This document shows positions 12,478 to 15,601 of a DNA stretch of 37,734 nucleotides, piece by piece. The position numbers and the translations under genes are program-made. The notes below the pieces were generated by a model. It did no database searches. It was not told where the DNA came from and worked only from the letters and a program-made list of their open reading frames with translations. The DNA comes from Gammaproteobacteria bacterium (GTDB lineage Bacteria; Pseudomonadota; Gammaproteobacteria; Steroidobacterales; Woeseiaceae). The DNA lies in contig JAACFE010000014.1 of NCBI GenBank assembly GCA_009937525.1, positions 1 to 37,734 of the forward strand, in the 5' to 3' direction. The number at the start of each line of letters is the position of its first letter. The first letter of the stretch is position 1.

Positions 12478-13611
12478 ATGGCTAATGACAATAACAAACT
12501 AAAAGAATTAGTCCCTGACGACAAGGATCGGACCGCAGACCTCGAACTGCCGATCCTGCGTGAGTCGGATGCAATTGACGACGCCGAGCCGGCCACCGAA
12601 CTCGACTTCGATGCCATGCAGTTCGATCCGTACGTTGCGCCTATTCGCAACCGCGACGCCGTCATACAGGATCTCAAAGCTGACCTGCGCATCAAGACGG
12701 AAACCATCGATCGCTTGCAGTTCGATGTCGAGCGCCTGCGCTCGAGACGCATCGGTCTCGAAACTGAGGTAAAGGCGCGTGAATCGCAGACTCGCAAACT
12801 TGCCAAGGCAATCGAGGAAGCCAACAAGCAGATCGACACTCTGACGTCTGCGCTTCGCGAAGCGAAGAAGTCTTACGACGAAGTCACTGGCAAGCTTGCG
12901 TCTACCCGCACGAAGCATCAGGAGGAACTGCGTATCCTGCGCTTCGAACTCACCGAGGCTGCGGAAACCGCCGCCCAGCAGGAGCTGATCAACGAGCAGC
13001 TCGCCTCGGACCTCGTCGACACGCGTAGCTTCAAGGGAGAACTGGAGCGCATGCTGACCTCGAGCGAGGAACAGAGTCAGTTGCACATCAGCCACCTCGA
13101 AGCCGAACTCGAGCAGCTGAGAAAGGTCAATTCGGACTACGAACTCGAGCTCGCAACCAAGAACGAAGCGATCGCGAACCTGCTCGAGCAGATTTCCGGC
13201 AAGGTCAGGCAGGACGAGTCGATTCGGGAGCTCGAAGCGGCCATCGAAGAACTCGACGAACATATGTCTGAGCGCCTGCAGGCGCCGCCTGTGTTGGACA
13301 AGGACCGAATGAGCCGGGTTCTGATCGGCAAGATCGATGACCAGGAACTCCGCTTCCCGTTGTTCAAGAATCGATTGACGATCGGGCGCACGCAGCACAA
13401 CGATATCCAGCTCCAGGCGCCGCACATCAGCCGCCGTCATGCGGTCCTGATGACAGAAGGCGACGTGACTCGGGTCATCGACTGGGGCAGCAAGAACGGC
13501 GTTTATGTCAACTCCAACCGCGTTACCGAACATTTTCTTGCGAGCGGCGACGTCGTAAGGATCGGCGACGCAAAATTCCGCTATGAGGAACGGCCGAAAC
13601 GCGACTCCTGA
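12478..13611 (+). CDS. Coiled-coil protein with C-terminal FHA domain
   Basis: Protein of 377 residues. After an acidic N-terminal stretch (1-50), residues about 60-265 form a long coiled coil rich in Glu, Lys, Leu and Arg. The C-terminus (about 282-372) is an FHA domain with LTIGRTQHNDI, HISRRHAVL and the conserved Asn-Gly in WGSKNGVYVNSNRV. FHA domains bind phosphothreonine peptides, so this protein probably reads the output of a Ser/Thr kinase; none lies within this cluster (SrkA is 6 kb away). No membrane segment is seen. The upstream AAA+ gene ends 69 bases before it. Confidence 0.9.
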   Translation: MANDNNKLKELVPDDKDRTADLELPILRESDAIDDAEPATELDFDAMQFDPYVAPIRNRDAVIQDLKADLRIKTETIDRLQFDVERLRSRRIGLETEVKARESQTRKLAKAIEEANKQIDTLTSALREAKKSYDEVTGKLASTRTKHQEELRILRFELTEAAETAAQQELINEQLASDLVDTRSFKGELERMLTSSEEQSQLHISHLEAELEQLRKVNSDYELELATKNEAIANLLEQISGKVRQDESIRELEAAIEELDEHMSERLQAPPVLDKDRMSRVLIGKIDDQELRFPLFKNRLTIGRTQHNDIQLQAPHISRRHAVLMTEGDVTRVIDWGSKNGVYVNSNRVTEHFLASGDVVRIGDAKFRYEERPKRDS

Positions 13612-13716
13612 TCGGCCTTAACGTTTCTCTCGAAACAATTTGTGAGCGCAATCACGGACACCCGTGGCACTAATGCGTATGCTCCTGTTCGGATCCAGGG
13701 AATGGGAATCGCATCA

Positions 13717-14022
13717 ATGTTGAGCAATGCGGGTACGAAATCGGCAAGCCTGTCCGATACCCAGGAGGTCACCCGCGCTGCCGGTTCCGTCGTATCCCGG
13801 AAGATCTGGTTGCCCAAAGGGCTGTATGACGCCCTTCCCTATTTTTACCTCGCCGCCGGAGTGGCGGCATTCCTGGCAACCCTCTACATCAGCACCTGGC
13901 TGTGGCTACTCCCGCACTATCTCCTGTTCTCGGCCGCCTGCCTGCATCTCGGCATACTGATACTGCGTCGCCGCAAGCGTACTCGGCAGCTGCCGGACAT
14001 TGCGGAATCCGACGCCACCTGA
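13717..14022 (+). CDS. Small inner-membrane protein, two predicted TM segments
   Basis: About 101 residues. The protein has a polar N-terminus and two hydrophobic helices in LPYFYLAAGVAAFLATLYI and WLWLLPHYLLFSAACLHLG, followed by a basic tail (ILRRRKRTRQLP). ATG at 13717 is preceded by GGGA nine bases away; the same frame is open to a GTG at 13642 that would add 25 residues without a visible ribosome-binding site. It follows the FHA gene on the same strand. No family recognised. Confidence 0.65.
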   Translation: MLSNAGTKSASLSDTQEVTRAAGSVVSRKIWLPKGLYDALPYFYLAAGVAAFLATLYISTWLWLLPHYLLFSAACLHLGILILRRRKRTRQLPDIAESDAT

Positions 14023-14082
14023 TCGCCCCCCCGGTTCTGCTCAACCGGAAACCCCGAAACCAGGGTTGACCTGCCCCGGACA

Positions 14083-14427
14083 GTGGGCAAGGATACGCCC
14101 GTATCAAAGCCGGATGTCCCCGTGACCGATCGCCGCAATTCCCTCCGCAAAATCATCATCAAGGAGACAGCCCTGCTGTTGGGATTCCTGTTCCTCGGGC
14201 TGGTGCTCTTGCCCGTCGCCATCTACCTGGTCGGACAGGCGATCTTCGGTGATTATGGCGGCGGCACTTACGGCCATTTCTATTCCGAGATGAGTGGTCG
14301 AATCCGCGCCGGCGATGCTGCAGCCTGGTTCCTCGTACTGTCACCCTACCTCGGTTGGCAGACACTGCGCCTGATAGGACTGGGGTGGCGTCTCGCGGGC
14401 CGACGGCCGCTGTCGCGAAGCCATTAG
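14083..14427 (+). CDS. Small inner-membrane protein
   Basis: About 114 residues from GTG at 14083; a GTG at 14122 is an equally possible start. The main hydrophobic helix is ETALLLGFLFLGLVLLPVAI, followed by YLVGQAIFG; a second weaker one is AAWFLVLSPYLGWQTLRLI. The C-terminus is basic (WRLAGRRPLSRSH). It lies 60 bases after the previous membrane protein gene and is probably co-transcribed. No family recognised. Confidence 0.6.
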   Translation: MGKDTPVSKPDVPVTDRRNSLRKIIIKETALLLGFLFLGLVLLPVAIYLVGQAIFGDYGGGTYGHFYSEMSGRIRAGDAAAWFLVLSPYLGWQTLRLIGLGWRLAGRRPLSRSH

Positions 14428-14441
14428 TGCGCATCTCTTCG

Positions 14442-14463
14442 AAATGTGAGCCAAATCACATTT
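14442..14463 (+). promoter_or_regulatory. CRP/Vfr-type binding site, perfect consensus
   Basis: AAATGTGAGCCAAATCACATTT contains TGTGA (14445-14449), a 6-base spacer and TCACA (14456-14460), with AAA/TTT flanks: a full match to the CRP consensus. The centre lies between 14452 and 14453. A TAATAA at 14482-14487 would be a -10 box giving +1 at 14494, which places the site at exactly -41.5, the class II activation geometry. The gene most likely controlled is the one starting at 14602. Confidence 0.8.
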
Positions 14464-14481
14464 TGCTTGAAGAATTTCCGC

Positions 14482-14487
14482 TAATAA
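14482..14487 (+). promoter_or_regulatory. Candidate -10 box of a CRP-dependent promoter
   Basis: TAATAA in an AT-rich patch of an otherwise GC-rich region, at the right distance downstream of the CRP site for class II activation. No good -35 hexamer is present, as expected when CRP overlaps that position. The predicted transcript would have a leader of about 108 bases before the ATG at 14602. Confidence 0.5.
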
Positions 14488-14601
14488 GTCATTAATTAAG
14501 TAATTTATGTCAACAGCGCAGCCATTCGCGTCGCGCAGCACCCTATAGTGTTCAGCGGGGGCTGTGTTGGCAACTTACAATTCGGACGGTGTAACAATCT
14601 C

Positions 14602-14970
14602 ATGATCAGGCGTTTGATCAATTGGCTGAAAGGCGGCCCCGCCCCAGAACTGCGCGATTCTGCCCCGGAACGCCGCCGGGTATCCGCGCACGCCGCGCTG
14701 CATGCCAGAGCGACACCAACTCCGGCACGCGAACCGCGCCTGGATATCGGCGAACCGAAAGAAGAATTCGAAGGCCGCATAGAGAATGTCGGCCCCGGGA
14801 AGAACGTGCTGGTTCGCGAAGGCTATGGCAGCGACGACACCGGCGCCCGGGAGATGCTCAAGCTCCTGGAAGATTCGCCGCTGGACCCGAGCGAGCCTGC
14901 CGGAATCGACCCCTACAATTCGGGCGAGTTCGATCGCTCCAGGCACTGGGACACGCGCTTCCGAAACTGA
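14602..14970 (+). CDS. Small soluble protein of unknown function
   Basis: About 122 residues. The N-terminus is basic (MIRRLINWLKGGP), followed by a disordered Ala/Pro/Arg-rich part and a more ordered acidic C-terminus (EEFEGRIENVGPGKNVLVREGYG, then EDSPLDPSEPAGIDPYNSGEFDRSRHWDTRF). The frame is open to GTG 14548, but ATG 14602 begins the recognisable sequence. It lies downstream of a perfect CRP site. The DUF1232 gene follows 70 bases later on the same strand. No family recognised. Confidence 0.68.
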   Translation: MIRRLINWLKGGPAPELRDSAPERRRVSAHAALHARATPTPAREPRLDIGEPKEEFEGRIENVGPGKNVLVREGYGSDDTGAREMLKLLEDSPLDPSEPAGIDPYNSGEFDRSRHWDTRFRN

Positions 14971-15040: not shown

Positions 15041-15601
15041 ATGGGGCTGCGAGTTACCTTCGAACTCGACGAGGAAGATCTCAAGCATTTCCGCCTGATC
15101 ATGCGGCAGGCCCGTACGACGGCCGCCCGTATCGCGCCCGAGGACATCGTCGCTGCCGCGGAGGACCTGCTGGCGGATATCGGACCGGATGGAACGCCTG
15201 CGTTCGTTGCCGAGCGGCTGCAGAAACTTCGACTGCTCATCGACATGCTTTCGGACATCGAATGGCGCCTGCCGCAGCGGGACGCCGACCGTGTGCTGAA
15301 CGCACTCGCCTATTTTGCCGAGCCCGAAGACCTCATCCCGGACCACATACCCGGCCTGGGTTTCCTGGACGACGCCATCATGATCGAGCTGATTTGCCGG
15401 GAACTGAAGCACGAGATCGAGGCTTACCAGGACTTTTGTGACTTTCGGCGGCGGATTCTGCGTGACTCCGGCCGAAATGCACGTGTCAGCCGCGAAGACT
15501 GGCTGGAAAACCGCCGCAGCGAACTGCAGTCGCGCATGCGGCGCCGCAAGCGCAGGGAAGGCGGCGGCCGCTCGAGTGGCGGTATCGGCCTGCTCCGCTA
15601 G
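15041..15601 (+). CDS. DUF1232 (YkvA-like) protein
   Basis: Protein of 186 residues. Residues about 86-118 (NALAYFAEPEDLIPD, then HIPGLGFLDDAIMIELI) match the DUF1232 core, a short segment shared with YkvA. The N-terminus is an acidic helix pair (MGLRVTFELDEEDLKHFRLI), and the tail is strongly basic (RMRRRKRREGGGRSS). Function unknown; many relatives are membrane associated, but this one has no clear transmembrane helix. The ATG has GGAG seven bases upstream. It converges with a small membrane protein gene. Confidence 0.82.
   Translation: MGLRVTFELDEEDLKHFRLIMRQARTTAARIAPEDIVAAAEDLLADIGPDGTPAFVAERLQKLRLLIDMLSDIEWRLPQRDADRVLNALAYFAEPEDLIPDHIPGLGFLDDAIMIELICRELKHEIEAYQDFCDFRRRILRDSGRNARVSREDWLENRRSELQSRMRRRKRREGGGRSSGGIGLLR

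Follow-up and report, generated by a model that had tools for sequence, protein, structure and literature searches.

A conserved predicted CRP target with two promoter geometries upstream of a small-protein gene in Woeseiaceae

We describe a CRP-type site that is conserved upstream of a gene for a small protein in Woeseiaceae, and comparison of the sequences makes CRP control of this gene very likely. The site (AAATGTGAGCCAAATCACATTT, site 1) lies at 14442-14463 on the forward strand of the window, by which we mean the whole stretch of 37,734 nucleotides that was analysed. The sequences show the site, its conservation, a conserved -10-like block downstream of it and a CRP gene in the same genome. 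Site 1 probably serves as the operator of a CRP-activated promoter with a class I-like arrangement, and a second predicted CRP site further upstream has the spacing of a class II promoter. The locus would represent a conserved predicted CRP target in which two promoter geometries stand side by side, and it links an undescribed protein motif with CRP. Woeseiales are described in the abstract of PMC7451513 as having a global distribution and being dominant in marine sediments, and the main text of that paper makes no mention of CRP or cAMP; in the literature searched, nothing relevant was found on CRP or cAMP in this group.

Site 1 and its neighbouring genes

The first-pass annotation had called a full-consensus TGTGA-N6-TCACA site at 14442, and both its sequence and its position were verified. 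Site 1 carries the palindrome expected of a CRP site (core 14445-14460, centre 14452.5), and this is the only perfect core in the window, against a mean of 0.01 over 100 dinucleotide shuffles, one of which contained a single perfect core. When up to two mismatches were allowed, the window held 8 matches, below the shuffle mean of 11.7, so that the perfect match alone stands out. The whole genome (3.0 Mb) contains five perfect cores compared with one for a reversed control pattern, and 1.5 would be expected if the composition of the window held throughout. A perfect core could in principle arise by chance in a genome of this size, and inspection of the loci of the other four revealed no clear theme. 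That site 1 is a chance match without function is nevertheless extremely improbable, and as a general account this is refuted by the retention of the site across orthologous loci described below.

Site 1 borders an AT-rich stretch (14450-14509, 28% GC), and its core starts 18 bp beyond the end of the preceding gene. This gene (14083..14427, forward strand), directly upstream of the site, encodes a protein of 114 amino acids with hydrophobic, probably membrane-embedded stretches and an uncertain GTG start, for which no Pfam family was found above cut-off. Downstream of site 1, at 14602..14970 on the forward strand, lies the gene for P0001 (122 amino acids), a conserved small protein without a known family; as had been noted before, and as the Pfam search bore out, it is followed by a DUF1232 gene (15041..15601, forward strand). 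The product of the latter matches the DUF1232 model (PF06803) above cut-off, although just 28 residues of the 186-residue protein align. Among the best 80 of the 92 confirmed named loci, homologues of the DUF1232 gene were found in 78 and those of the 114-residue protein in 74. Since only 70 bp separate the 14602 gene from the DUF1232 gene and the latter is so widely retained, it is plausible from the gene arrangement that the DUF1232 gene is co-regulated, possibly on the same transcript.

Conservation of site 1 upstream of orthologues

A search for the same site upstream of orthologues of the 14602 protein had been proposed as a check on the initial observation, and the site is indeed kept. 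Named orthologue records come mostly from Woeseiaceae, and also from Woeseia, unclassified Gammaproteobacteria and Proteobacteria, and two Chromatiales; from 92 confirmed loci the best 80 were kept, and six were dropped for too little upstream DNA. In the resulting 74 loci we found 53 perfect cores, 20 cores at 9/10 and one at 7/10 (L112), so that 73 of the 74 have a core of at least 9/10. Control windows from the same loci (n=610) contained no perfect core and four at 9/10, some of which may be the second site, about 1 kb upstream. The DNA of the one exception, L112, is identical to that of L179 from genome G629, in which CRP is present.

Orthologues of the protein are present in 32 of 36 relatives of the same genus. 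In 29 loci from these relatives a core of at least 9/10 invariably occurs within 330 bp, 108-281 bp upstream of the match, and 20 of these cores are perfect; all 29 recur in the named set, and the two comparisons therefore constitute one test. Three further same-genus orthologues include two with a 9/10 core (L035 and L036) and one, L037, with no core of at least 8/10 near the gene, even though its genome (G021) encodes CRP. Of 12 further loci in an earlier set, ten have a core of at least 9/10 near the gene, and the remaining two are L037 and L042, which has no upstream DNA.

Promoter geometry at site 1

Site 1 had been placed at -41.5 from a candidate promoter, with TAATAA (14482-14487, forward strand) as its -10 box, which corresponds to class II geometry. 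The box and the arithmetic (a transcription start at 14494) are correct as computed, the class II spacing fits the window exactly, and a composite class II pattern fits site 1 with one mismatch. The relatives do not bear this assignment out. In 74 sequences (73 loci plus the window; L112, which lacks the site, was left out), TAnnnT was absent from offsets 36-38, that is, from the TAATAA offset (37) and one position on either side, and occurred in 11 anywhere in 32-42; the counts instead peak at offsets 55 (16 sequences) and 61 (21), with six more at offset 56. TAATAA itself lacks the final T and is not kept as TAnnnT in relatives. It is also outscored by TAATTT (14501..14506, forward strand), the top-scoring -10 candidate 3' of the site in the window (5.3 vs 2.0). 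Given the empty offsets 36-38 and the peaks at 55 and 61, class II was rejected for site 1, and we regard a promoter of this type there as unlikely.

TAnnnT at offset 55, 56 or 61, equivalent to site centres at -59.5, -60.5 or -65.5, is found in 42 of the 74 sequences, and neither mode is seen in 32. This puts the -10 signal 18-24 bp downstream of TAATAA and 47.5-53.5 bp past the site centre. An alignment of 30 sequences on the core shows two conserved elements, the site itself and a block spanning offsets 55-62, with little conservation in the columns between and around them. In the window, TAATTT would put the centre of site 1 at -60.5 and the transcription start near 14513; it overlaps TATGTC (14506-14511), which aligns with TATGTT, the form seen in other relatives. 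We also observed TGCA at offset 75 (16 sequences) or 76 (7) after the core across the 74 loci (L049-L128), just past the predicted start.

Class I CRP promoters have a site centred near -61.5, upstream of the -35 region (PMC2859248). Site 1 would resemble lac-type class I promoters in lying upstream of the -35 region and in that the AR1 segment is identical in the host CRP, and would differ from them in its predicted centre, which varies among relatives (-59.5, -60.5 or -65.5). A centre at -65.5 does not keep the helical phase that is usual for class I. Seen across the aligned sequences, a class I-like geometry appears to be the best fit for site 1, despite the two modes and the sequences that show neither. 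No sigma-70 consensus -35/-10 promoter was found in 13600-14640 (shuffles 0.5), as expected where an activator is required. With the leaders of 74 loci anchored on the ATG, no upstream column rose above 0.25 bit, so that no Shine-Dalgarno position is conserved.

We propose that CRP, with cAMP as the putative ligand, would bind site 1 and activate transcription from about 14513, giving a leader of about 90 nt and a transcript that would code for the motif protein (14602-14970) and, if the genes form an operon, might extend into the DUF1232 gene. CRP might also bind and repress, or have mixed effects, as activation does not follow from where the site lies; however, a -10-like block at the observed distance past the site centre suits activator dependence, as does the lack of a consensus sigma-70 promoter, and repression or a mixed role seems improbable. 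Of the earlier proposal, a CRP-type site ahead of the 14602 gene is supported, with the site in 73 of 74 loci and, in the genome, a CRP orthologue and two class III cyclase-domain matches, and the class II mode (0/74) is not.

A second, predicted class II-type promoter upstream

Class II geometry is found instead at a second predicted CRP site, TGTGAGCGCAATCACG (13641-13656, forward strand, centre 13648.5; site 2), which was not seen in the first-pass annotation. Of the 74 sequences (73 loci plus the window), 67 score at least 9/10 for site 2, and in 66 of these 67 TAnnnT occurs at offset 37, which places the centre exactly at -41.5. In the window this -10 element is TATGCT (13678..13683, forward strand), with a predicted start near 13690. 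On these sequence grounds site 2 has the spacing of class II CRP promoters and site 1 does not. The composite class II pattern with at most one mismatch has 19 matches in the genome versus one for the reversed control; two of the 19 are site 1 read on either strand, and four have no mismatch.

This predicted second promoter, 800 bp upstream of the first, would precede two genes for small hydrophobic proteins, namely the 114-residue protein introduced above and a 101-residue protein (13717..14022, forward strand, predicted start), also with hydrophobic, probably membrane-embedded stretches, which lies downstream of site 2, has a homologue in 67 of the best 80 named loci and has no family match. 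Two CRP promoters would give the gene cluster two CRP inputs.

CRP and other regulators of the genome

Three proteins of the genome exceed the PF00325 cut-off, and one of them, P0003 (217 amino acids), matches the NCBI CRP equivalog model with 319 bits (cut-off 266). In the PDB it is closest to E. coli CRP and to Vfr, in keeping with a cAMP-CRP/Vfr protein. In the alignment with E. coli CRP, the AR1 segment DAMTHPDGMQI is identical, and the recognition-helix R, E and R and most cAMP-contact residues match, with residue numbers and roles that we take to be as in E. coli CRP. P0003 differs from the latter in the replacement of S128 by N and of H19, H21 and K101 by R, and the change at S128 may mean that ligand binding differs from that of E. 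coli CRP. P0003 occurs in 38 of 41 genomes of the genus, at 97-100% identity over the matched length and in some cases as fragments. Two class III cyclase-domain matches were detected in the window's genome, in which no class I adenylate cyclase was found. At locus L002 (1441-2909), crp adjoins a gene that we take to resemble coq7.

Another member of the Crp/Fnr family could bind site 1 in place of CRP, since the two further PF00325 proteins have R-E-x-x-x-R recognition helices, which would matter for this question, and PF13545 has nine matches in the genome at E <=0.001, one of which (C68) is stronger than CRP. Yet these two PF00325 proteins, at 27.6 and 24.8 bits, stay far below the equivalog cut-off of 266, and the half-sites are of the TGTGA type rather than the FNR type. 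Moreover, CRP is the strongest PF13545 match in G003 and G028, which have 10/10 sites, and in G032 and G035, which have 9/10 sites. We therefore consider a different regulator quite unlikely, and CRP remains the preferred regulator of site 1.

Motif genes elsewhere in the order

A 40-position profile of the P0001 motif matched 120 of 396 order-level genomes, from six families. By-eye comparison found a CRP match (E 1e-60) in 115 of these 120; no CRP match at this level was found in G008, G689, G447, G458 and G507, which are 64, 71, 90, 92 and 82% complete, respectively. Both a CRP match and the motif gene are lacking in small-genome members of the family (G004, G011, G562 and nine g290 genomes), and several larger genomes of the genus (e.g. 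G018 and G025) have CRP without the motif gene. Across these genomes, shared descent can explain the co-occurrence of CRP and the motif gene as well as function does. Woeseiaceae genomes from the water column are reported to be smaller than those from sediment (PMC12175321), and the joint absence of CRP and the motif gene in small genomes might track lifestyle.

For 60 motif loci, the 650 bp that precede the motif were scored for their best core. Cores of at least 9/10 were present in 19 of 22 loci from other genera of the family (17 of the 22 also belong to the named set), in 21 of 31 loci from other families and in all seven loci of type-2 paralogues, compared with 6 of 239 controls for the whole 60-locus set; the other families and the paralogues at other loci thus combine to 28 of 38 with a CRP-like core. 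Anchoring the search on the first in-frame ATG gave a core in 46 of 60 loci (controls 2/323). The ten other-family misses all score 8/10, four of them sharing CTTGA-N6-TCACA, and a copy with a broken motif (L182) has no site. In 5-kb loci from other families, homologues of the neighbours TM114, TSP and mTM94 were found in 19, 23 and 20 of 30, respectively, and many of the genes in other families are therefore positional orthologues and not independent cases. None of these neighbours occurs at the seven type-2 paralogue loci.

The motif protein

P0001 carries near its C terminus the motif DPYNSGEFDRSRHW (residues 103-116; 14908..14949, forward strand), with the consensus DPYN[ST]GxFDRSxxW and with columns that are invariant or nearly so. 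Over 75 sequences, L86, D103, P104, Y105, N106, G108, F110, D111, R112 and W116 are invariant, and a GPGKNVL stretch that is absent from the other-family proteins compared is nearly invariant. Same-genus orthologues of the protein are 34-57% identical, except for two named loci at 76 and 79%, whereas P0003 reaches 97-100% within the genus. No match was obtained for P0001 in Pfam, NCBIfam or PHROGs, for a profile of the 75 sequences in the PDB, or for the relatives in Pfam. Structure prediction yielded a low-confidence model (mean pLDDT 63.8, pTM 0.17) with a helix at 2-9, two short strands and a helix at 116-120. P0001 is probably largely disordered; our guess from sequence and model is that its N terminus forms an amphipathic helix and that the motif at its C terminus serves for docking.

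Profile searches for the motif were made within the class and, across 369 class-level genomes, confine it to the order, one marginal match aside. The first class-level profile recovered the window's genome, G229, G058 and, marginally, G238 (E 0.008); the second recovered the first three and a weak additional place in the window's genome (C31, E 0.005). As a speculative and rather doubtful extension, the motif might mark CRP-induced small proteins across the order, including paralogues with little else alike, which could form a post-translational arm of cAMP signalling made up of disordered, membrane-tethered peptides that dock one common partner through the motif.

Some further observations concern the paralogues and the more distant loci. 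L219-L225 and L043-L045 encode Cys-rich paralogues that end in the same DPYN motif; the cores upstream are all at least 9/10 for L219-L225 and likewise 9/10 for L043-L045. In family f10 (L199-L218), several loci have a GTCGCAATTTGGGAACAT-like stretch downstream of a degenerate CRP-like core. Finally, in G597 the type-2 paralogue L224 (C20:2084-2164) lies on the same contig as the crp gene (C20:8599-9246), about 6.4 kb away.
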